NCBI GenBank assembly: GCA_014382365.1
Contig: JACNJW010000039.1
Span: 186,001-250,000 of the forward strand
Direction: 5' to 3'
Length of the DNA stretch: 64,000 nucleotides
Source: SAR324 cluster bacterium
GTDB taxonomy: Bacteria; SAR324; NAC60-12
Shown here: positions 13,152 through 24,399 of the stretch, piece after piece
Position numbering within the stretch: position 1 is the first letter of the stretch
Layout of the letters: each line of letters begins with the position of its first letter
Notes under the pieces: generated by a model
Told to the model about the DNA's origin: nothing
Seen by the model: the letters and a program-made list of their open reading frames with translations, nothing else
The model's database searches: none
Position numbers and translations under genes: made by a program

Positions 13152-14033
13152 ATGTGGACAGAAATTTGGGTTGCAGTTGGAATTCTAGTGGGCTTGGGCT
13201 TAACCTTTGCGACAGTTCTTGCTCTGGCTAACAAACAGTTTTGGGTTTATGAAGATCCGCGTATAGATCAGGTAACTGATTTACTTCCTGGTACTAATTG
13301 TGGTGCTTGTGGACAGCCCGGCTGTCATGCATTTGCAGAAGTCATAGTTGACGGTTCTGTCTTGCCGGGAAAATGCACCGTCAGTTCTGCAGAAAAAATT
13401 GAGGAGATTGCAGAATTTCTTGGTGTTGATGCAGGGAAAGAAGAAAAAAGAGTTGCACGACTGCAGTGTGCGGGTGGGCGCATGGAAGATCGCGACAAAG
13501 CGGATTATCAAGGACAGAAAACTTGCCGCGAACTTGCTGTTGTTCACGGAGGTAACAGGGGATGTGCCTGGGGTTGTCTGGGCTTAGCTGATTGTGAGAA
13601 GGTTTGTACTTTTAATTCAATCAAGATGAATGACAATGAACTGCCGGTTGTAGATATTGAAACGTGTACTGCCTGCGGAGATTGTGTGGATGTTTGCCCA
13701 AAAGACTTGTTTACAATCATGCCAATCAGTCAAAAACTGATAGTGCAGTGTAAATCCCTGCTTGAAGGTGATCTCGCCCAGCAAATATGTAGTGTTGCCT
13801 GTGATGCCTGCGGACGTTGTGTGTCAGATTCTATTCCGGGACTGATTGAAATGCATGAAAATTTGGCGGTGATAGATTATTCCCGTAACGAACTGGCAAG
13901 TCCTTCAGCTACCTGGCGTTGTCCAACCGGAGCAATCCAGTGGGTAACTGAGCAACAGTTCAAAGTAGCCTCACAGCCGTTGTTTCCACTAGGTAGAGTT
14001 GAGGTCCTTTCTGATAAACAAGTTCGGTTGTAA
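13152..14033 (+). CDS. rnfB: Rnf complex subunit RnfB (ferredoxin-type)
   Basis: RnfB accepts electrons from ferredoxin and passes them into the membrane-bound Rnf complex, which couples ferredoxin:NAD oxidoreduction to ion transport. An N-terminal membrane anchor (residues 5-26) is followed by the typical NCGACGQPGCHAFAE cluster motif, then GNRGCAWGCLGLADCEKVC, CTACGDCVDVCP, and a further Cys group ending in DACGRCVSD. Length (293) is normal. Here rnfB is not next to rnfC: a 3.9-kb PFOR-like gene is inserted between them, which is unusual and suggests a dedicated electron donor. Confidence 0.95.
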   Translation: MWTEIWVAVGILVGLGLTFATVLALANKQFWVYEDPRIDQVTDLLPGTNCGACGQPGCHAFAEVIVDGSVLPGKCTVSSAEKIEEIAEFLGVDAGKEEKRVARLQCAGGRMEDRDKADYQGQKTCRELAVVHGGNRGCAWGCLGLADCEKVCTFNSIKMNDNELPVVDIETCTACGDCVDVCPKDLFTIMPISQKLIVQCKSLLEGDLAQQICSVACDACGRCVSDSIPGLIEMHENLAVIDYSRNELASPSATWRCPTGAIQWVTEQQFKVASQPLFPLGRVEVLSDKQVRL

Positions 14034-14053: not shown

Positions 14054-17000
14054 ATGAAAGAAAACAAAGAAATTATGAAAAAACGTTATTCCGGTGAAGA
14101 ATGGATAAAAATTCTTAAGCTGCTGGAAAAATCAATCAGTGAAGGCTGGGTTGATGCTGATTTTGAAAATCAGTCTGAAAATAATGAGCTTCATGAGGAC
14201 TTGAATATTTTTGGGCGTTCAGTAATTAATTCAAAAACTAAAAATCAATTGGCCTACATTGCAGGACTTTCTGCAACAGGTTTACGTGCAGCAGCATTTA
14301 TTCCTGGTGATCAGTTGTTGGCTCATTATGCAGATCTTGTTAGTGCAGCCAAACGTCTGTTGAGCTGTGTAACATACCTTTCTCTTTCATCCGGTCACCA
14401 GCCGTATCATGCTGCTGCAGATGCAGGTTTTTTTCAGTGGATGGCAAAAGATGCCAGTGAAGCAGTAGATTTGGGTTTGCTTACTCACAAAATTGCAGAA
14501 CTTAGTCTGGTTCCCGGATTGGTGGGTTTGGACGCAATTTCCGATTCTGCAGAATTAGAAGCAGATATTTTCCTGCCTGACAAAGTAATTTTGCAAAAAA
14601 TTTTGGGTAATGCAGATGACATGATTGCTGCACCAACTCCTGCACAGGCAATTATCTTTGGCGAAACAAGAAGACGCATTCCAAACTGGTTTAATTTCGA
14701 TACACCGACTTTCAATTACCTCCAAAAAGATGCACAGGCAGGTGCTCTTGAAACTGCTGCACGACAACCATTTTTTTATGACCACCTTGCAAAGATCATC
14801 CAAGATGTTCTTGATGAATATACTAAACTTACTGGTAAAAAAACAGCCTTGCTGGAATCTTTTGAAACTCAGGATGCAGAACAGCTGATTTTGGTAGAAG
14901 GTGCTGCTTTTGAAACAGTCAAAGCTGCAGTTGAACAGCTCAGAGAACAGAAGAAAAAAGTAGGTTGCCTGAGGGTTGTAATGCATCGCCCATTTCCTGG
15001 AGCAGAACTCGTGAATCTTCTTTCAGGCAAAAAAGCAGTTACGATTCTCGATCAATCTCTTTTTCCTGCCTCTGCAGAAGGTCCGCTTTTTCGGGAGGTC
15101 GCTGGTGCAATTAATAAAGCAGAAGAGAATACTGCAGGAAATATAAAATTTCCCGAATATCCGCTACTTGGAAAAACAGATAAACCGTTACTGTTTGGTG
15201 TATATTGCGGACTTGGAGGAGCGGTGATAACGAAGGATGAGGTAATAACTGTTTTTGAAAATGCCATGGGTAAACTTCCCTCAAAAAGCGGTTTGTTTGC
15301 AGGAAAAAAAAGAGAGCAAACGATCTCTCGGCAACGCTTTTTTACAGGAGTTTCATTTATAAATGCAAATCAGGAATATCCGAAGGTAGCAGCGGAGCTG
15401 GCACGTTTGCGGGTAGCATATCCGGATTTGGAGAGGCTTACGTTAGCAGATGAAGGTTTCGGAAAGAAAAAAGCAGAAGCTGAGTTTACAGCTAAAACAG
15501 AGTCTGGAATAACTGAATTACCGCTGGTAGTTAAAAATTATCGGGATCAGGGACAACCGTATACTCAGCTTTCCAGATTCCAAAATCAGAAAGCAGCATT
15601 CTATCAGCATAACAAAATTGAAGAATTGAATGTGACACCTTTTGATGCCTTGCCTGCGGTTCCTGCAGCAACAGCAGAATTGCGAGACATGTCACAAGAA
15701 AGGATTCAAGTTCCTGTCTTTATTCCTGCAGAATGTACCGGCTGTGGAGATTGTTTTGTCAGGTGTCCTGAATCTGCTTTGCCACCTGTGGTCTCGTCTC
15801 CGGAAGAACTGTTGAAGTCTGCAGCAATAATTGCTGCAGAAAAGAATGAACCGATTACTCAGCTGACCCCACTCTTAAAACCAATTGCTCTGGCTACAGG
15901 TAAATTCTTGCGGGAAACCACTGCTGAAATTAAACAGGCTGCAGATTTTTTCCCTCAGGCATTTGCAAAAACAATTGAACAAAAAAAGACATCTGCTGAG
16001 AGTCAGGAAATCATAACAGCTGAATTTCAGCGTTTAATGAATATAATGTCAGAATTTCCACTGGCACAAACAGAAATATTTTTTAAGCAGGCTGAAGCTC
16101 AAAAACGTGGTGCCGGAGAATTGTTTTCTATTGCAATTGATTCGTATTCTTGCTCAGGATGCGGAATTTGTACAGAAGAATGTCAGGAAAATGCGCTGCA
16201 GATGGAAATACAAACACCGGAAATTGAAGATAAGCAGCGTTCGAATTTTAGGTTTTGGGAGAAACTTCCTGACACTTCTCTGGATACCATGAGGAGGGTT
16301 TTGGAGGATGCAGAATATTCTTCATTTTCCGCAGTATTGCTCTCGCGAAATTATTATAAAAGTTTGGGACAAACTTCAAGTACAAATATAGAATTGAAAT
16401 TTAAATCTGATAAAACTGCTGAAGATATTGATGCTGAGAAAAAATATTTTGGAGAAAAGGTAATTCTGCATTTGATTTTGGCTGTTACAGAATCAGTCAT
16501 GCAACCTGCTGTTGCTGCTTTTGCCAGAGAAACAAATGATTTACACGATCTGTTGGCACAGCGTATTCAAGCAGAAATGAGAGATGCTTTACCGCATGAC
16601 AGCTTCACAGCATTAGCACAAACACTTTCAGATGCTTCAAAGACACGGGTATATTTTGACGAACTGTTGCATCAGGTAATTGAAAAAGAGCATACTGCTC
16701 CGGTAGATATCACAACATTGCGTAGTCTGGTTAATCTGGAACAGTCAATTTCAGAGTTGAATTGGGTACTAACACAAGGTCCAACAGGAATAGGACGTGC
16801 CAGAATGGGACTGTGCATGCTTGGTCAGCACTCTATGAAGTGGGGACAAAAGTATCCTGAACAACCATTTTTCTTTCCTGTATGGGCACAGGGGGAACAT
16901 GCCGATCCGGCAGTTACTCTGGGATTGTTGGATGGTCAGCTACGCCATTATCTTGATAATATCCGTTTGGTGCACCGTGCAAAATTGGAGGCAAAAGGTA

Positions 17001-17950
17001 AATACAAACCACATCTGCATGATGCAGAAATTGCATCATTGAGCTGGGATGATCTAAGCGAATCAGAGCGTGCAGCATGTCCAAAAATATTTCTGCTTGG
17101 CGATCATAAATCACTAAATGAACAAAGCATATCAACCTGGTCGGTTCTGCTGAATTCTAAATTACCAATACGTATTATTATTCTGGACTCTGCTGCCGCA
17201 GTATCTCCGCAGCTGCATGCTTCGGTATTAGCAAAAGTGGATCTGCTGTCGATGAGCTACCGCAATGCATTTGTGCTCCAGTCTTCTCTTGTAACACCGG
17301 AGCATTTTCACGATGGTTTGGTCAAGGGCTTAAACTTTCAGGGCCCGGCCCTTTTTCACTTACACGTACCTGATTCTAAATTAGCCGATGAACTTCTGCT
17401 GCAATCACGGACTTTTCCAGTATTTACTTTTGATCCGGACAAAAAAGGTGTATTTGGTAATTTGATAGACCTTTCAGGCAATCCGCAAACATCGGCTAAA
17501 GTTGAAAATTTTGCAGACTGGGCATTTACACAGGAGAGGTTCAACAGCCATTTTACAGCGCTGGACGATGCGGCAACAGCTTCAATACCTCTCAGTATGT
17601 GGCTTGAGGAAGAATCGCCTGCAGCAGAAATGGTAGCGTTTATTGAACAAACTCTTGCCGATGGAGAAACTAGAAGATTCAAAGTTTCTCAAGAGATACT
17701 CAAAGCCGGTGTTTTAGTTCGGGATCATTGGAGAATGCTGCAGGAAATATCCGGTGAGCAAACGCCGTTCACTGCCAAAGTTCAAAAAGAACTTAAGGAA
17801 CAAACTACTGCTGAACATCAGGAGGATCTGGACAGTCTGAAAGCAGAATATGAGAAAAAACTGCAGGAACTTGAAATGAAGTATCAGCAACGTACAAAAG
17901 ATGTAATACGTGAGCGTTTACTGGCCCTGGCGGGTTATCCCGCTAATTAG
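14054..17950 (+). CDS. Giant PFOR-like protein, two 4Fe-4S clusters, TPP motif lost
   Basis: A 1298-residue protein following the PFOR layout. Residues about 60-400 resemble domains I-II (SAAKRL...HAAADAGFF, RVVMHRPFPGAELV). Residues about 395-540 resemble the gamma domain. Two ferredoxin motifs lie at Cys 561/564/567/571 and Cys 700/703/706/710. Residues about 915-1180 resemble the TPP domain. The start of domain I with its substrate loop is missing and the GDG motif is GDH (1016-1018), so oxidoreductase catalysis looks unlikely. A coiled coil ends the protein. Lying between rnfB and rnfC, it could wire KorAB to the Rnf complex. Alternatively it binds another cofactor. Confidence 0.8.
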   Translation: MKENKEIMKKRYSGEEWIKILKLLEKSISEGWVDADFENQSENNELHEDLNIFGRSVINSKTKNQLAYIAGLSATGLRAAAFIPGDQLLAHYADLVSAAKRLLSCVTYLSLSSGHQPYHAAADAGFFQWMAKDASEAVDLGLLTHKIAELSLVPGLVGLDAISDSAELEADIFLPDKVILQKILGNADDMIAAPTPAQAIIFGETRRRIPNWFNFDTPTFNYLQKDAQAGALETAARQPFFYDHLAKIIQDVLDEYTKLTGKKTALLESFETQDAEQLILVEGAAFETVKAAVEQLREQKKKVGCLRVVMHRPFPGAELVNLLSGKKAVTILDQSLFPASAEGPLFREVAGAINKAEENTAGNIKFPEYPLLGKTDKPLLFGVYCGLGGAVITKDEVITVFENAMGKLPSKSGLFAGKKREQTISRQRFFTGVSFINANQEYPKVAAELARLRVAYPDLERLTLADEGFGKKKAEAEFTAKTESGITELPLVVKNYRDQGQPYTQLSRFQNQKAAFYQHNKIEELNVTPFDALPAVPAATAELRDMSQERIQVPVFIPAECTGCGDCFVRCPESALPPVVSSPEELLKSAAIIAAEKNEPITQLTPLLKPIALATGKFLRETTAEIKQAADFFPQAFAKTIEQKKTSAESQEIITAEFQRLMNIMSEFPLAQTEIFFKQAEAQKRGAGELFSIAIDSYSCSGCGICTEECQENALQMEIQTPEIEDKQRSNFRFWEKLPDTSLDTMRRVLEDAEYSSFSAVLLSRNYYKSLGQTSSTNIELKFKSDKTAEDIDAEKKYFGEKVILHLILAVTESVMQPAVAAFARETNDLHDLLAQRIQAEMRDALPHDSFTALAQTLSDASKTRVYFDELLHQVIEKEHTAPVDITTLRSLVNLEQSISELNWVLTQGPTGIGRARMGLCMLGQHSMKWGQKYPEQPFFFPVWAQGEHADPAVTLGLLDGQLRHYLDNIRLVHRAKLEAKGKYKPHLHDAEIASLSWDDLSESERAACPKIFLLGDHKSLNEQSISTWSVLLNSKLPIRIIILDSAAAVSPQLHASVLAKVDLLSMSYRNAFVLQSSLVTPEHFHDGLVKGLNFQGPALFHLHVPDSKLADELLLQSRTFPVFTFDPDKKGVFGNLIDLSGNPQTSAKVENFADWAFTQERFNSHFTALDDAATASIPLSMWLEEESPAAEMVAFIEQTLADGETRRFKVSQEILKAGVLVRDHWRMLQEISGEQTPFTAKVQKELKEQTTAEHQEDLDSLKAEYEKKLQELEMKYQQRTKDVIRERLLALAGYPAN

Positions 17951-18038: not shown

Positions 18039-19370
18039 GTGTTGTTAACATTTACTAACGGTGTACATCCACAGGAGTTTAAAAGCTGGACTAACAATAG
18101 TCCGGTTGAGCGCCTGCCGTTTTTTGCGGATTATGTTATTCCACTTTCGCAGCATATTGGTGCTCCCTCAAAATCACTGGTTCGCAAAGGCCAGTATGTG
18201 GCCCGGGGAGAAAAAATTGCAGAACCCGGAGCATATGTTTCAGTAGCTTATCACTCTCCGGTTGACGGAGTTGTCAGTGCAGTTGAACTGGCGGAACATC
18301 CCGGTGGAAAAATGGTGCCTTCCATCAAAATCAAAGCAGATCCGTTTTCCTCCCAGCGTCTTGAAAAGAAACCAATTGACTGGAAATCACTGACAAAGAA
18401 AGAGTTTGCAGATCATCTCCAGAATTCCGGAATGGTTGGGCTTGGCGGTGCTGCTTTTCCTTCACACGTAAAATTTGCTGTTCCGGATGATAAAAAATGT
18501 GATTATTTAATCATCAACGGCTGCGAATGTGAGCCTTTTCTAACTGCAGATCACAGAGTGATGGCTGAGTATCCGTTGGAAGTAATGCGCGGCATTGAAA
18601 TGTTACAGTATTTTTTAACACCAAAAAAGACCTTCATTGGTATTGAGGCCAATAAAAAGGATGCTATTAATATTTTGCAGTTGGAAGCAAATAAACATCC
18701 GGAACTTGCTGTAGAAATAGTTTCGCTCGAAGTTAAGTACCCTCAGGGTGCGGAGAAGATGCTGATTAGCGCAATTTTAACAAACGAAGTTCCGTCCGGT
18801 ACAATTCCCCTGGATGGTGGTTATTTGGTTTCGAATGTGGGAACAGTTGCAGCGATTGCAGAGTACTTTGACAGTGGCAAACCCTTGATTGAAAGGGTGG
18901 TTACTGTTTCTGGCTCAAATATTAAGCGGCCTGCCAATCTGCTGGTTCCAATTGGTACAAGCATGCAGGAACTGTTGAACGCCTGTGGTGGTTTTAAGTC
19001 TTCAGATTTTGGAGATTCTGCAAGAATTTTGCTGGGCGGTCCAATGATGGGCATGGCTCAAAAAAGCCTTGATGTTCCAGTAGTCAAAGGTACATCCGGA
19101 GTTTTAGCATTGGGTGTTCTTGAAGTTCCGGGCAGGAATACTTTTCAATGCATCCGCTGTGGAAGATGTCTTGAGGCCTGTCCGATGTTCCTCAATCCGT
19201 CCACACTTGGCTTACTGGCCAAAAAAGGACTCTACGAAGAAATGCTTGAAGAAAATTTAATGGATTGTATGGAATGCGCCTCTTGTTCTTATGTCTGTCC
19301 TTCCGGAATTCCTCTGGTACAGAGTTTTCGGGTGGCCAAAGCGGTAAACCGTGAACGAAAGGTTGCATGA
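18039..19370 (+). CDS. rnfC: Rnf complex subunit RnfC (NADH-binding, 2x 4Fe-4S)
   Basis: The peripheral subunit where NADH is bound. The 443 residues show GVHPQEFK at the N-terminus, the GMVGLGGAAFPSHVK and INGCECEPFLTADH segments shared with NuoF-like proteins, and two 4Fe-4S motifs near the C-terminus, CIRCGRCLEACP and CMECASCSYVCP. The start is a GTG directly before the conserved N-terminus, with only a weak ribosome binding site. It overlaps rnfD by four bases (ATGA), indicating translational coupling. Confidence 0.96.
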   Translation: MLLTFTNGVHPQEFKSWTNNSPVERLPFFADYVIPLSQHIGAPSKSLVRKGQYVARGEKIAEPGAYVSVAYHSPVDGVVSAVELAEHPGGKMVPSIKIKADPFSSQRLEKKPIDWKSLTKKEFADHLQNSGMVGLGGAAFPSHVKFAVPDDKKCDYLIINGCECEPFLTADHRVMAEYPLEVMRGIEMLQYFLTPKKTFIGIEANKKDAINILQLEANKHPELAVEIVSLEVKYPQGAEKMLISAILTNEVPSGTIPLDGGYLVSNVGTVAAIAEYFDSGKPLIERVVTVSGSNIKRPANLLVPIGTSMQELLNACGGFKSSDFGDSARILLGGPMMGMAQKSLDVPVVKGTSGVLALGVLEVPGRNTFQCIRCGRCLEACPMFLNPSTLGLLAKKGLYEEMLEENLMDCMECASCSYVCPSGIPLVQSFRVAKAVNRERKVA

Positions 19371-20374
19371 AAAAAGAACTGATCCTTTCCACTTCACCGT
19401 TTTTACATGACTCTGCGACAACTCCATGGATCATGTTTCAGGTGATTTATGCCTTGATTCCGATTATTGCAGCAGCTGCATATTTTTTTGGCATGAGTGC
19501 TCTGTTGTTGATTGCCGTCACTGTCCTCGCCTGTTTAGTTACAGAACGAATTTTTACTGCAGCCAAGCAGGAAGAACCATCATCTCTGAAAGACGGTAGT
19601 GCTGTCCTGACTGGAATCTTACTGGCACTAACTCTGCCTCCTGGTTTTCCATTGTGGATGGCTTTTCTGGGCGGATTAGCAGCAATCGGCATGGGTAAAA
19701 TGATCTGGGGTGGTTTGGGACAAAATATTTTCAATCCTGCTTTGCTTGGCAGAGCATTTTTACAGTCTTCATTTCCTACAGCAATTACTACCTGGTCTGT
19801 TCCTGACGGACAATTCTTTTCTTTTCGCGGGACAAATTTGGCTTTGCCATTTTTTCAGGGAGAATCTTTAGACAGTGCAACAAGTGCAACTCCACTGGCA
19901 TTGATGAAATTTCAACAGGAAGGCACTGAATGGTTTAAACTTTTGATGGGCAACACTTCCGGTTCACTTGGTGAAACATCTGCTGCACTGCTTTTACTGG
20001 TAGGAGTTTACCTTGGAATGAGACGTGTATTTGACTGGCGGATTCCAGTTTCTATCATCTTAACAGTAACAGTACTTTCCAGCATATTTTATGTTATCAA
20101 TGCAGAACGGTTTCCCTCACCGGATTTTATGCTGCTTTCCGGAGGTTTACTTTTGGGTGCAATATTCATGGCAACAGATCCGGTAACTTCACCCTACACT
20201 CCTAAAGGAGTTTGGTATTTTGGTTTTGGTATTGGTTTTTTAGTGGTCCTAATTCGACTGTTTGGTGGTTTGCCTGAAGGAGTGATGTATGCAGTCTTGC
20301 TAATGAACTCTGTCACACCACTACTCAACAAGCTAACACGCAAGCGGGTATACGGACACCTCAAAAATGGTTGA
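19367..20374 (+). CDS. rnfD: Rnf complex subunit RnfD (FMN-carrying membrane subunit)
   Basis: A 335-residue integral membrane protein related to NqrB, part of the ion-translocating core. It has many hydrophobic segments, the GQNIFNPALLGRAF motif and a SATSATPL flavinylation site for covalent FMN. It overlaps rnfC by ATGA and overlaps rnfG by eight bases. No ApbE flavin transferase gene appears in the window, so flavinylation must depend on one elsewhere. Confidence 0.96.
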   Translation: MKKELILSTSPFLHDSATTPWIMFQVIYALIPIIAAAAYFFGMSALLLIAVTVLACLVTERIFTAAKQEEPSSLKDGSAVLTGILLALTLPPGFPLWMAFLGGLAAIGMGKMIWGGLGQNIFNPALLGRAFLQSSFPTAITTWSVPDGQFFSFRGTNLALPFFQGESLDSATSATPLALMKFQQEGTEWFKLLMGNTSGSLGETSAALLLLVGVYLGMRRVFDWRIPVSIILTVTVLSSIFYVINAERFPSPDFMLLSGGLLLGAIFMATDPVTSPYTPKGVWYFGFGIGFLVVLIRLFGGLPEGVMYAVLLMNSVTPLLNKLTRKRVYGHLKNG

Positions 20375-21020
20375 ACTACAACAAAATAGAGGAAGCAGTT
20401 CTTTGCGTTTGATTGCAACACTTGGTGTGGCAGGTTTATTTTCCGGATTAGCACTGGTGGCAGTCTTTCTCTTTACACGTCCGCTGATAGAAGCAAATCA
20501 GGCAGAAGCACTACGGATTGCTATCTTTCAGGTTTTACCAGGTAGTGAATCTTACAAAACATTGGAACTCAATGCAAAAAAGCTGCAGTTGTTGAGCAAC
20601 GAAAAAGAAAGTACAGGGCCAAAAAAGTCAAATCCCAGGATTTATGCAGGCTACAGTAAGTCCGGTGATTTACTTGGATTTGCCATTCCTGGTGAAGAAC
20701 CTGGCTTCCAGGATAAGATCAAAGCTATTTTTGGTTATGATCCTGAACAGAGAATGCTGATTGGTTTTGAGGTTCTGGACACCAAAGAGACTCCTGGTCT
20801 GGGAGATAAAATAATCAAGGACAAGTATTTCAGGTCAAGTTTGACGACACTGAAAATTGATCCAAAAATTGTTGCAGTCAAGCCCGGACAAAAGACTGCA
20901 GCAAATCAGGTGGAAACAATCACAGGAGCAACTATATCCTCAAAAACTGTGATACGTCTTTTGGAAAAAACTATCCGCTGGTGGTTGCCCAGTATTAATA
21001 AATATTTAGAGACACAATGA
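20367..21020 (+). CDS. rnfG: Rnf complex subunit RnfG (covalent FMN)
   Basis: A 217-residue protein with one N-terminal membrane helix (about residues 12-36) and a periplasmic FMN-binding domain related to NqrC. The flavinylation motif TGATISS is present near the C-terminus, and the GYDPEQRMLIGFEVL...ETPGLGDKI stretch is typical of the family. Its start lies within rnfD and its end overlaps rnfE by four bases. Confidence 0.95.
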   Translation: MVELQQNRGSSSLRLIATLGVAGLFSGLALVAVFLFTRPLIEANQAEALRIAIFQVLPGSESYKTLELNAKKLQLLSNEKESTGPKKSNPRIYAGYSKSGDLLGFAIPGEEPGFQDKIKAIFGYDPEQRMLIGFEVLDTKETPGLGDKIIKDKYFRSSLTTLKIDPKIVAVKPGQKTAANQVETITGATISSKTVIRLLEKTIRWWLPSINKYLETQ

Positions 21021-21655
21021 AAAATACTGTGGAAGCCAGCCGTTACCGCGCAGAATTTGTCAAGGGACTCTGGAAAGAGAATCCGGTCTTTGTAGCAGTT
21101 TTGGGGATGTGTCCGGCCCTTGCGGTGACAAACACTGCAATTAATGGTATAGCCATGGGGGGAGCAACTCTTTTTGTGCTGACTTTTTCCAGTCTGCTGG
21201 TTTCCAGTTTTCGCAAATTAATTCCGAAGGAAGTGCGTATCACTACTTTTGTGATTATCATTGCTACTTTTGTAACCATCGTCGATTTTTTGCTGCAGGC
21301 TTTTATGCCTGCAATCCATAAAGAATTGGGGGCCTTTGTGGCATTGATTGTGGTGAACTGTCTTATTCTTGGACGGCAGGAAGCATTTGCATTTAAAAAT
21401 CCGGTTCGACTGGCAGTTGTAGATGCTTTAGGAATGTCACTGGGGTTTAGCTTCGCCTTATTTTGTCTGGGTGCAATTCGCGAAATTTTAGGTAACGGTT
21501 CGCTTTTTGGAATAACGCTGTTTGGTCCTGATTTCGAACCATGGATCGTGATGATTCTTCCACCTGGAGGTTTTCTATCGCTTGGTTTCCTGCTGCTGTT
21601 TTTTAACTGGCTCAAGCAAAGGCAAGAAAAGAAAGGAGTAGAGAATGGCTACTGA
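21017..21655 (+). CDS. rnfE: Rnf complex subunit RnfE
   Basis: A 212-residue membrane protein of the RnfE/NqrD family with about six helices. The two family cysteines are visible in GMCPALAVT and VNCLILGRQEAF. In structures of Rnf/Nqr these and the matching RnfA cysteines hold an intramembrane Fe-S centre. It overlaps rnfG (ATGA) and rnfA (11 bases). Confidence 0.95.
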   Translation: MKNTVEASRYRAEFVKGLWKENPVFVAVLGMCPALAVTNTAINGIAMGGATLFVLTFSSLLVSSFRKLIPKEVRITTFVIIIATFVTIVDFLLQAFMPAIHKELGAFVALIVVNCLILGRQEAFAFKNPVRLAVVDALGMSLGFSFALFCLGAIREILGNGSLFGITLFGPDFEPWIVMILPPGGFLSLGFLLLFFNWLKQRQEKKGVENGY

Positions 21656-22226
21656 TCTTCTATGGATCTTCATTTCAGCAATGGTAATTAATAACTTCAC
21701 GCTCTATTATTTTCTGGGGTTGTGTCCATTTTTTGGAGTTTCAGATCGAATATCAACGGCATTCCGGATGGGAATGGCCAATGTCTTTGTTTTGTTAATT
21801 ACAGCTTTTTGTGCCTGGTTTTTGAACTCTTTTGTTTTGAACCATGCACCATATTTACGTCTGATCAGTTTCATTATTGTGGTTGCCAGTACTGTTCAAT
21901 TTGTTGAAATGGCGATCAAGAAACTAAGTCCGGCTCTTTTCAGGGCACTTGGTATTTTCCTGCCACTCATTACGACAAACTGCGCAATTCTGGGTTTGGC
22001 TTTGTTTGCTACAAACAAAGGTTACGGTTTAGTTGAAAGTTTGGTTTACGCTCTTGGCGCAGGCGGAGGTTTAACTCTGGCTCTGGTGATTATGGCAGGC
22101 ATCAGAGAGGAAACAAAATTGCTGGAAATTCCTAAAGTAATCGAAGGTACTGCCTTGAACCTGATAATTGCCGGTATTTTGTCGATGGCCTTTATGGGCT
22201 TTGCCGGTCTTTTCAGTACTACTTAA
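21645..22226 (+). CDS. rnfA: Rnf complex subunit RnfA
   Basis: A 193-residue membrane protein of the RnfA/NqrE family. It carries the family cysteines in YYFLGLCPFFGVS and TTNCAILGLALF, inverted in topology relative to RnfE, with which it would share the intramembrane Fe-S site. Last of the five overlapping rnfCDGEA genes. A short gene resembling NqrM follows after 67 bases. Confidence 0.95.
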   Translation: MATDLLWIFISAMVINNFTLYYFLGLCPFFGVSDRISTAFRMGMANVFVLLITAFCAWFLNSFVLNHAPYLRLISFIIVVASTVQFVEMAIKKLSPALFRALGIFLPLITTNCAILGLALFATNKGYGLVESLVYALGAGGGLTLALVIMAGIREETKLLEIPKVIEGTALNLIIAGILSMAFMGFAGLFSTT

Positions 22227-22293: not shown

Positions 22294-22497
22294 ATGGATT
22301 ATCTGAATCATATTTTTGCCGTTCTTGGATTTTCTGCTCTTTGTGTGGTCTGGCTTATTGTACAGTATCTGGCGAAATCGATGCATACCAAAAATTTATT
22401 TGAAAACCAGGGAGGTTGTTCCGGCAGTTGTGCAAATTCCACGAGTGGTGAAAGTTGCGAAAGTAAAGGGAATACCTGCGAACGCAGTCTCAAGTAA
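22294..22497 (+). CDS. Small Cys-rich membrane protein, NqrM-like
   Basis: A 67-residue protein with one N-terminal transmembrane helix (about residues 5-28) followed by a short hydrophilic tail holding four cysteines (GGCSGSCANS, ESCESK, NTCERS). Size, topology and cysteine content resemble NqrM, the factor needed to insert iron at the NqrD/NqrE interface. RnfE and RnfA are the Rnf counterparts of those subunits and rnfA is the preceding gene, so an Rnf Fe-S maturation role is a reasonable inference. Sequence identity to NqrM cannot be judged here. It ends 17 bases from the convergent PPIase gene. Confidence 0.7.
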   Translation: MDYLNHIFAVLGFSALCVVWLIVQYLAKSMHTKNLFENQGGCSGSCANSTSGESCESKGNTCERSLK

Positions 22498-22514: not shown

Positions 22515-23570
22515 TTATTTCCTCACCTTCTTTTTCTTCTTTTTCTTCTTTTGAGGAATTACCATAACGCGGCGTGCCTGGCAGTTGATGTCTCCCTGTT
22601 CAATAACTGGTAATGCAAGTGAGTCAGGTAATCCGGAAGATTCAGGATCTTTGATTTCAATATTTGCACAGGCATAAAGTTCATCCATATATGTACCTAA
22701 CAGTTCTTCACGCTTTTGTGAAGATAAGGCATTCGAATATTTAACCTTTTGATCTGCAGATAGTTCTGAGCAGGTCAATCCTTGTGGAAACACTTCCTGG
22801 TAAATGTAGAGTAGGTGATGTCCAATCGTTGTTTTAACAAGTTTGCTGATTTCGCCAGGCAGCAAACTTTTTGTGACTTCACCAATTTCTGCCAGGAGAT
22901 CTTCTGGTTTAAAAATACCCAGCTTACCACCAGTACGTTTGGCACTTGCATCGGCAGAGTGGAGTTTTGCTAAATCTTCAAAAGAAGCTCCGCTTTCAAA
23001 AGCACCACGAATGGTTGTTACCTGTTCCTGAACTTCTTCAGTTGAACCCTGAAGCAGGATTTGAGCAAGTCCCACCTTTCGTTCTTTTCGCAGCTGCTTT
23101 TCACAAAAGAGTTTAATTTCTTGAGATTCAACACGAATTTTGGAATCTACCTCACGACTTATTACATGGTGTTTTTTAAATTCACGGGCAAGTTGTTCTT
23201 TTAAATCATCTTCTGCATAAACCTCAAGCAGTTGAGGTTGATCTCTGGCCAGTTGATCTAATCTTGATTCAATTTCCTTCGTTCCGGCAATAATTTTAAG
23301 TGCACTTGCTCTGTCCAGCAACAACATTTCCTGCACCAGGTTCATCAGTAATTTCTTGTCATGCTCCTGTTGGGTCTGTTTTGCAGACGAATTTTGTGCT
23401 TTTAAGGCAGCAGACACATCTTGTGCTTCACTACGTGTGAGCATCTGACTGTTGACTATCAGATAAATTCGATCAATCACCAGGACTTCGGCCAGTAAAA
23501 TATTTGCAAAAAAACCAATTCCAAAGACAAAAATTATTGATATAATTGCAGGATAATAATTAAAGCGCAT
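22515..23570 (-). CDS. SurA-like periplasmic peptidyl-prolyl isomerase/chaperone
   Basis: An exported protein of 351 residues. A hydrophobic N-terminal signal is followed by a SurA-type N-terminal helical region (VIDRIYLIVNSQMLTRSE), then one parvulin domain around residues 175-275 (LAQILLQG, FEDLAKLHSAD, GGKLGIF, ISKLVKT..GHHLLYI). It would help outer-membrane proteins fold. The C-terminus is unusual: it ends in a run of about nine lysines (QKKKKKKKKKVRK). I choose the Met that overlaps the upstream gene by 11 bases (ATGCGCTTTAA); a Met seven codons earlier is also possible. Confidence 0.85.
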   Translation of the reverse strand: MRFNYYPAIISIIFVFGIGFFANILLAEVLVIDRIYLIVNSQMLTRSEAQDVSAALKAQNSSAKQTQQEHDKKLLMNLVQEMLLLDRASALKIIAGTKEIESRLDQLARDQPQLLEVYAEDDLKEQLAREFKKHHVISREVDSKIRVESQEIKLFCEKQLRKERKVGLAQILLQGSTEEVQEQVTTIRGAFESGASFEDLAKLHSADASAKRTGGKLGIFKPEDLLAEIGEVTKSLLPGEISKLVKTTIGHHLLYIYQEVFPQGLTCSELSADQKVKYSNALSSQKREELLGTYMDELYACANIEIKDPESSGLPDSLALPVIEQGDINCQARRVMVIPQKKKKKKKKVRK

Positions 23571-24399
23571 AGTTGTTTTGTAGAGTTGCATTTTCTAAAT
23601 TACGTAATTTCCAGGCTTGTTCCTGTAGTTTTTTCATTGGCAAACGTGAGAGTGTACGGATCTTTTTCACAGTTGTCCTTTTGAACAATCTGCCATCCAG
23701 AAAATACTCAGTAATTATAGGATATGTCTGCCAGCGGTAAGTCGTATAATTTTTGAAGACAATTTTTGTTTCCAGCCAGGTTCCACCTGCCAACCAAAGC
23801 CTGTTATGCAGTGAGACCAAGTCGAAAGTTTTTGGATTGAGCAAGGCATAGTGTCCTGATTCCAGATCTCCAAGTCTAAGAAAAACATGATTATCAGCAC
23901 GCAGGTGATATGCTAGTTCTTGACTGATAATTCCAACTTCTTTAAGTGCTCTGCGACGTTTATTTCCGTATCTGGAGCGGATACGAAGCTGCCTCGGTAA
24001 AATGTCTGCAGTTTCAAAAGTGCGGTTTTTATTCAGCGAAACCGCCAATAAATCCTGATTGTATTCATAGTAATAATGCAGCAGTTGTCCTGCATCATCC
24101 TGTGTCTCTACGATCAGTACTTCTCCATCTTTCCAGTGAATGACTTGTTTAAAACCTCTGGCAGGCAATTCAACCGGACGTTCTGAAAAATCTCCGTCAG
24201 CATTTTTTGCAAATGCATCAAAAACCTGCACAACTGTCTGCATACGGACTCGTCGCCAGCTCATCCGTTTTTCCATTTGGAACATCAAATCATCCCAGTT
24301 TAATGGAAAATAGGCGTTCGCAGCAGTAGCAAAATTAAAGATAATTCCAAATAAAAATATTTTGGAAAGTCGTCTTAATAACAAATATCCTCTTTTCAT
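23560..24399 (-). CDS. Exported protein of unknown function
   Basis: 279 residues with an N-terminal signal peptide ending near ANA-Y (residues about 10-29), so the mature part is periplasmic or outer-membrane associated. The mature sequence is rich in beta-strand patterns with many aromatic residues (HYYYEYNQDLLAVSLN, TYRWQTYPIITEYFLDG), somewhat like outer-membrane lipoprotein-sorting folds, but I cannot assign a family. It overlaps the SurA-like gene and is divergent from the first lipoprotein gene, which argues for a shared envelope-biogenesis role. Confidence 0.75.
   Translation of the reverse strand: MKRGYLLLRRLSKIFLFGIIFNFATAANAYFPLNWDDLMFQMEKRMSWRRVRMQTVVQVFDAFAKNADGDFSERPVELPARGFKQVIHWKDGEVLIVETQDDAGQLLHYYYEYNQDLLAVSLNKNRTFETADILPRQLRIRSRYGNKRRRALKEVGIISQELAYHLRADNHVFLRLGDLESGHYALLNPKTFDLVSLHNRLWLAGGTWLETKIVFKNYTTYRWQTYPIITEYFLDGRLFKRTTVKKIRTLSRLPMKKLQEQAWKLRNLENATLQNNYAL

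Follow-up and report, generated by a model that had tools for sequence, protein, structure and literature searches.

The rnf operon of the window (the whole stretch of 64,000 nucleotides that was analyzed) closes with a small gene for a one-helix membrane protein with a cysteine-bearing tail. This protein belongs to an unnamed family that is linked near-exclusively to rnfA of one Rnf lineage. We give about an even chance to the reading that it is a dedicated accessory or maturation factor, which would bring iron or an Fe-S unit to the [2Fe-2S] site of RnfA and RnfE. No description of such a small Cys protein family was found in our literature searches.

The small gene at the end of the rnf operon

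Pfam and NCBIfam matches give the gene order rnfB, a gene for a 1298-aa PFOR-like protein, rnfC, rnfD, rnfG, rnfE, rnfA, and the small gene (Table 1). An earlier note on this DNA had described a 67-residue one-helix protein with four clustered cysteines after rnfA, and both the ORF translation and the rnfA profile matches confirm this description. rnfA stops at 22226, and the ATG of the small gene follows after 67 bp; its 67 codons encode MDYLNHIFAVLGFSALCVVWLIVQYLAKSMHTKNLFENQGGCSGSCANSTSGESCESKGNTCERSLK. It is the last gene of the rnf run, because the next gene, encoding a PpiC-type isomerase on the minus strand, is convergent. The isomerase (22515-23591) ends in a nine-lysine run (KKKKKKKKKVRK).

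Table 1. Features of the rnf operon and of the small gene, in window positions
Feature	Position	Strand	Evidence or remark
rnfB	13152..14033	+	FeS PF04060 E 6.6e-13; N-terminal helix and CGACG region resembling the small family
PFOR-like 1298-aa protein, between rnfB and rnfC	14054..17950	+	PFOR_II E 2.6e-16; TIGR02176 E 1.2e-33
rnfC	18039..19370	+	TIGR01945 E 2.8e-154
rnfD	19367..20374	+	TIGR01946 E 1.6e-99
rnfG	20367..21020	+	TIGR01947 E 2e-25; FMN_bind
rnfE, RnfA partner around the [2Fe-2S] centre	21017..21655	+	TIGR01948 E 6.5e-71
rnfA	21645..22226	+	TIGR01943 E 8.8e-68; Pfam Rnf-Nqr E 9e-54
RnfA cluster-ligand Cys27 (21723-21725) and Cys113 (21981-21983)	within rnfA	+	proposed delivery site, together with RnfE
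Small one-helix Cys-tailed protein gene	22294..22497	+	67 aa; ORF and translation; closes the rnf run
Predicted transmembrane helix, residues 7-25	22312..22368	+	hydropathy; AlphaFold helix 2-37
Cysteine tail of the small protein	22417..22479	+	C42 (22417-22419), C46 (22429-22431), C55 (22456-22458), C62 (22477-22479)

The tail cysteines of the window protein are spaced CX3CX8CX6C, and this copy has an extra cysteine, C17, within the helix. In the AlphaFold model (mean pLDDT 62.5), made from the window protein with seven relatives, a single long helix precedes a Cys tail that is unstructured. Identity is 71% to the orthologue from a congeneric genome and 40-46% to three further relatives; all four are encoded directly 3' of rnfE-rnfA. 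Across these five sequences, M1, C17, W20, Q24, T32-K33-N34, and three tail cysteines are invariant. The dN/dS of the small gene is about 0.27-0.41, from the one orthologue pair L074/L075 (dS of the window/L072 pair being saturated and giving no ratio), compared to about 0.02-0.03 for rnfA. The gene is constrained, though far more loosely than rnfA, and judged by its relatives the ORF is more than chance.

No Pfam or NCBIfam model fits the small protein, and neither PHROGs nor Rfam has a match for the gene. Plasmid searches with NqrM and one family member returned no match, solved structures contain no meaningful match for the protein, and scans for promoters and terminators around the gene gave nothing informative. 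In RnfA of the window's class, C27 and C113 are invariant (12/12 sequences). Elsewhere in the window genome lies a second Rnf operon (L071, G000:C22:5000-21000), which belongs to the same clade as the first and has an intact PFOR-like gene and a convergent apbE. This operon has its own small Cys protein, of 65 aa and with the spacing CX3CX1CX5C.

Distribution of the family and the RnfA clade

The four relatives from the first search all follow rnfE-rnfA directly, and three of them precede apbE. A one-helix Cys-tailed ORF is present 3' of rnfA in about 33 of 80 named RnfA loci, often overlapping the rnfA stop codon, and the record labels of the carriers cover Acidobacteriota, Gemmatimonadota, Rokubacteria, Bacteroidota, Calditrichota, Spirochaetota, Kiritimatiellota, Myxococcota, and Pseudomonadota. 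Two ORFs of the criterion-based survey, located more than 500 bp downstream of rnfA (L173, L182), are spurious and are not matched by the family profile. An apparent fusion of RnfA with the small protein (L134) depends on translation across an unresolved base and through a stretch that is out of frame; it was not counted.

Genome-wide profile searches of 132 genomes gave 45 strong matches (E<1e-5), all of them directly 3' of rnfA; the profile was built from rnfA-adjacent ORFs, and the adjacency of its own members is therefore by construction. The independent test of adjacency comes from about 17 matches absent from the profile, several of which are additional copies that accompany a second Rnf operon. 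Such second copies occur in six genomes (G058, G059, G061, G073, G095, and G104). Weak matches (E>1e-3) away from rnf represent another family or noise.

A tree of 111 RnfA/NqrE sequences (quick search, without bootstraps) places every carrier within a single RnfA clade, with an SH-aLRT of 100. The small gene is found in 49 of the 54 assessable clade members, spanning about 10 phyla as labelled, many loci being metagenome assemblies that may be misbinned (L107, for instance, is labelled Saprospiraceae and its RnfA groups with the window's class). It follows no RnfA outside the clade, and parsimony on the RnfA tree needs 6 changes for its presence. The recurrence next to rnf operons by which the earlier note proposed to check its claim is thus strongly borne out, and so is the dedication to Rnf. 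Four or five clade operons lack the gene (L077, L110, L111, L122, L129): L111 lacks it in the operon itself while its genome carries one in another operon (L216), and the L122 genome has one beside another rnfA (L211). The contig of L118 stops at rnfA, and this locus is not countable as a carrier. In L122, a reductase-like gene (…YLTDYNTDVQLTAIVKKSTRLTPEDTEEIRELQLEV…, after 4657) lies 3' of rnfA at the place expected for the small gene.

The anatomy of the protein is similar across the family. Exactly four tail cysteines occur in 37 of 46 members, with a range of 2-6 (L220 has two). The family has 12 Lys and Arg residues before the helix and 127 after it and, by the positive-inside rule, the tail is therefore predicted to be cytoplasmic. 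A W..VQ-like motif is observed at the helix end in most members, the short versions from Gemmatimonadota, Acidobacteriota, and Rokubacteria, which lack it, being included mainly by position. A Bacteroidota subgroup shows the spacing CX2CX1CX3C.

The distribution of the family was also compared with that of RseC (RseC_MucC, PF04246), another small Cys-bearing membrane protein functionally tied to Rnf/Rsx. In 80 Rnf genomes, the two are largely complementary (small gene only 24, RseC only 40, both 15, neither 1; Fisher p 3e-9), and within the window's class the Rnf operons that bear RseC are without the small gene. The Cys motif of RseC can hold an Fe-S cluster and RseC acts with Rsx (PMC11729352), and Clostridium ljungdahlii requires rseC both for autotrophy and to express rnf (PMC9124969). 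The small protein could accordingly replace RseC in regulating or tuning Rnf through expression, redox sensing, or complex stability, with no cluster insertion, a reading that we consider improbable. The complementarity follows the tree, which reduces it to 2 to 5 independent pairs, a number that gives a phylogenetically independent comparison no power; the genomes with both genes, as well as G042 (from the window's class) and G115, which have neither, also speak against a replacement. Moreover, the two proteins are unlike in sequence and topology: RseC has two helices, an N-terminal CX5CX2CX5C motif, and about 150 aa, whereas the small protein has one helix and C-terminal cysteines, and the window protein has no match to PF04246. 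The complementarity is a hint that both proteins may fill related roles.

Comparison with NqrM, FeoB-associated proteins, and RnfB

The earlier note had called the small protein NqrM-like, which holds for the body plan (one N-terminal helix and a predicted cytoplasmic tail with usually four cysteines) but not for membership of the NqrM family by sequence. The window protein has no match to PF04400 (NqrM, DUF539) at E<=10, and neither seven relatives nor ten distant family members match this model; the window genome has no PF04400 match over the cut-off, an absence of NqrM that is not absolute given that PF04400 is a short profile which misses divergent NqrM. A GSCGG motif is absent from the window protein and its relatives, and the cysteine spacing of the window protein does not reproduce the GSCGG...CxCxxxC pattern of NqrM. 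In hhalign, 46 family members align with seven NqrM or NqrM-like sequences over 28 columns, all in the helix (83%), with a score of 30.6, where shuffling gives 16.5 on average and 29.1 at most; with small alignments the value is 3%. Taken over Pfam, NCBIfam, hhalign, and cross-HMM comparisons, homology to NqrM is not supported beyond the helix.

Beyond the body plan, both genes stand at the end of an operon for homologous complexes, near apbE, and the Bacteroidota subgroup shares with NqrM the CxCx3C spacing of the last three cysteines. The small gene nevertheless differs from nqrM in that it adjoins rnf, not nqr. Some rnf operons read rnfA-small-apbE, where apbE is a known flavin-maturation gene, and the Nqr operons of the window's class carry NqrM-like genes behind apbE, in a place matching that of the small gene and apbE; two of these NqrM-like genes reach the PF04400 cut-off and the others were recognized by position and by their small-helix-Cys plan. 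In one genome (G022), an NqrM-like gene in an Nqr operon occurs alongside the small gene in an Rnf operon, and Thiothrix caldifontis encodes a canonical NqrM (56 bits) plus the small protein. In Vibrio cholerae, apbE and nqrM occur with the nqr genes, and NQR seems to need NqrM for its [2Fe-2S] centre and ApbE for its flavins, according to the sections of a review that treat these factors (PMC12174285).

We also observe a flavobacterial one-helix Cys protein (…FAGTCASQxPxxNKxGEACGxCGK…) in L239 (around 2219), L240 (around 2397), and L243 (around 2438-2229), which adjoins a lipA-like gene in the first two. It matches the family profile weakly, is more NqrM-like, and is not reported by PF04400.

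The best curated model for the family is that of the FeoB-associated Cys-rich membrane proteins (PF12669), which also have a small helix and a CGxC tail. Two family members reach E ~1e-3, the best score is 19.7 bits, and the window protein scores 10.7 bits (E 0.68). All scores are below the curated cut-off of 27 bits, and this identity was rejected. No feoB neighbours were seen, all strong family matches being beside rnfA.

The family profile is closer to the N-terminus of RnfB. This region, a helix followed by CGxCG, aligns with the family in hhalign over 52 columns (94.8%) with a score of 40.9, compared to a maximum of 25.1 in 120 shuffles within blocks, while the N-termini of RnfG, RnfA, RnfE, and ApbE gave nothing against the same profile. 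Both have a helix, then a CGxC(G) region, and the same predicted orientation. Nevertheless, the window protein has no match to the FeS domain (PF04060), lacks the rest of this domain and the later ferredoxin domains, and differs from it in cysteine spacing; by pairwise BLAST, the small protein and RnfB of the window show no similarity. The likeness is a profile-level resemblance that could reflect homology or convergence. The RnfB helix forms a bundle with helices of RnfA, RnfE, and RnfG in the structure from Clostridium tetanomorphum, where a swing of the RnfB FdI domain into the RnfAE groove has been proposed as its way to the metal site (PMC9588780). The closer resemblance of the family to the RnfB N-terminus than to NqrM suggests docking at this RnfA/RnfE groove.

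The similarity to the RnfB helix and CGxCG region would also fit a permanent accessory subunit, a minimal RnfB-like membrane-anchored Fe-S carrier, that would relay electrons to the RnfA/RnfE cluster from RnfB or the PFOR-like protein as input module. The near-constant presence of the gene inside the clade and the usual four cytoplasmic cysteines are consistent with such a subunit. We take this as a serious alternative, yet as rather unlikely, given that the number and spacing of the cysteines are too variable for a conserved electron-transfer cluster, that the window operon retains a gene for RnfB, FeS domain included, that the AlphaFold model contains no folded Fe-S domain, and that the small protein evolves much faster than the core subunits.

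A possible role in loading the RnfA/RnfE cluster

Cysteines of both RnfA and RnfE take part in an intramembrane [2Fe-2S] cluster, and the sections of the 2025 RNF/NQR review on maturation name ApbE for flavins and NqrM for the NQR cluster and give no factor for the RNF [2Fe-2S] cluster (PMC12174285). As a maturation factor, the small protein would be anchored in the membrane by its one helix, with a predicted N-out orientation, and expose a flexible cytoplasmic tail with usually four cysteines. It would dock beside RnfA/RnfE, where the similarly built RnfB N-terminus sits, and its tail may hold iron or a nascent Fe-S unit for delivery to the site formed by the RnfA and RnfE cysteines, a role like that proposed for NqrM at NqrD/NqrE. 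With a build like that of the RnfB N-terminus, such a factor could enter the RnfAE groove to load the site.

The position beside apbE in some operons, which is also that of NqrM genes, argues for a maturation role, and so do the near-exclusive linkage to rnfA, the confinement to one RnfA clade, the usual four cysteines of a predicted cytoplasmic tail, the conserved cluster cysteines of RnfA, and the profile resemblance to the RnfB N-terminus. Several observations argue against it: the gene is missing from four or five operons of the clade; the variable number and spacing of the cysteines is unusual for a fixed cluster site, even if an iron carrier could tolerate it; Rnf complexes outside the clade do without the small gene; a permanent Fe-S subunit could have the same anatomy; and the close tie of the small gene to the PFOR-like gene suggests a relation to the lineage and not to RnfA/RnfE alone. 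We hypothesize, tentatively and with more doubt than for a maturation role as such, that this unnamed family, derived from the RnfB N-terminus or mimicking it, is a dedicated cluster-insertion factor of a PFOR-linked Rnf lineage of about 10 phyla. NqrM and the small family would then be independent solutions for loading one intramembrane [2Fe-2S] site. The family offers a concrete candidate for the RNF [2Fe-2S] factor in a defined Rnf lineage, which includes the cultured Thiothrix caldifontis, Flavivirga rizhaonensis, and Thiorhodococcus mannitoliphagus, and this makes the question directly testable. As such a factor, the small gene would also have to be supplied when these Rnf complexes are made in another host.

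The link to the PFOR-like gene raises another reading, in which the small protein serves the PFOR-like protein encoded before rnfC, in Fe-S assembly or membrane docking, in place of RnfA/RnfE. Indeed, the two genes co-occur, with both present in 24, neither in 34, and only 4 discordant among 62 assessable loci, one of the discordant loci (L118) being cut at rnfA. Nevertheless, we consider this very improbable, as the small gene adjoins rnfA and not the PFOR-like gene, it is missing from L129 and L077 although both carry the PFOR-like gene, and it is kept in the window where the PFOR-like protein lacks the thiamine-diphosphate (TPP) motif.

This motif (GGDGAMYDIGFQ...DTQVYSNTGGQ) is intact in most clade operons, including the second one of the window genome, and is replaced by LGDHKSLNEQ...DSAAAVSPQ in the PFOR-like protein of the window. 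The window copy, like those of L073, L075, and L127, has lost the TPP motif and kept two CxxCxxCxxxC motifs. The window version is therefore probably a non-catalytic protein for electron transfer or docking, and possibly a new Rnf subunit. A gene resembling the alpha subunit of 2-oxoacid:ferredoxin oxidoreductase is found after rnfA in L077 (after 7191) and after the small gene in L081 (after ~2200), a further tie of this Rnf clade to 2-oxoacid oxidation.
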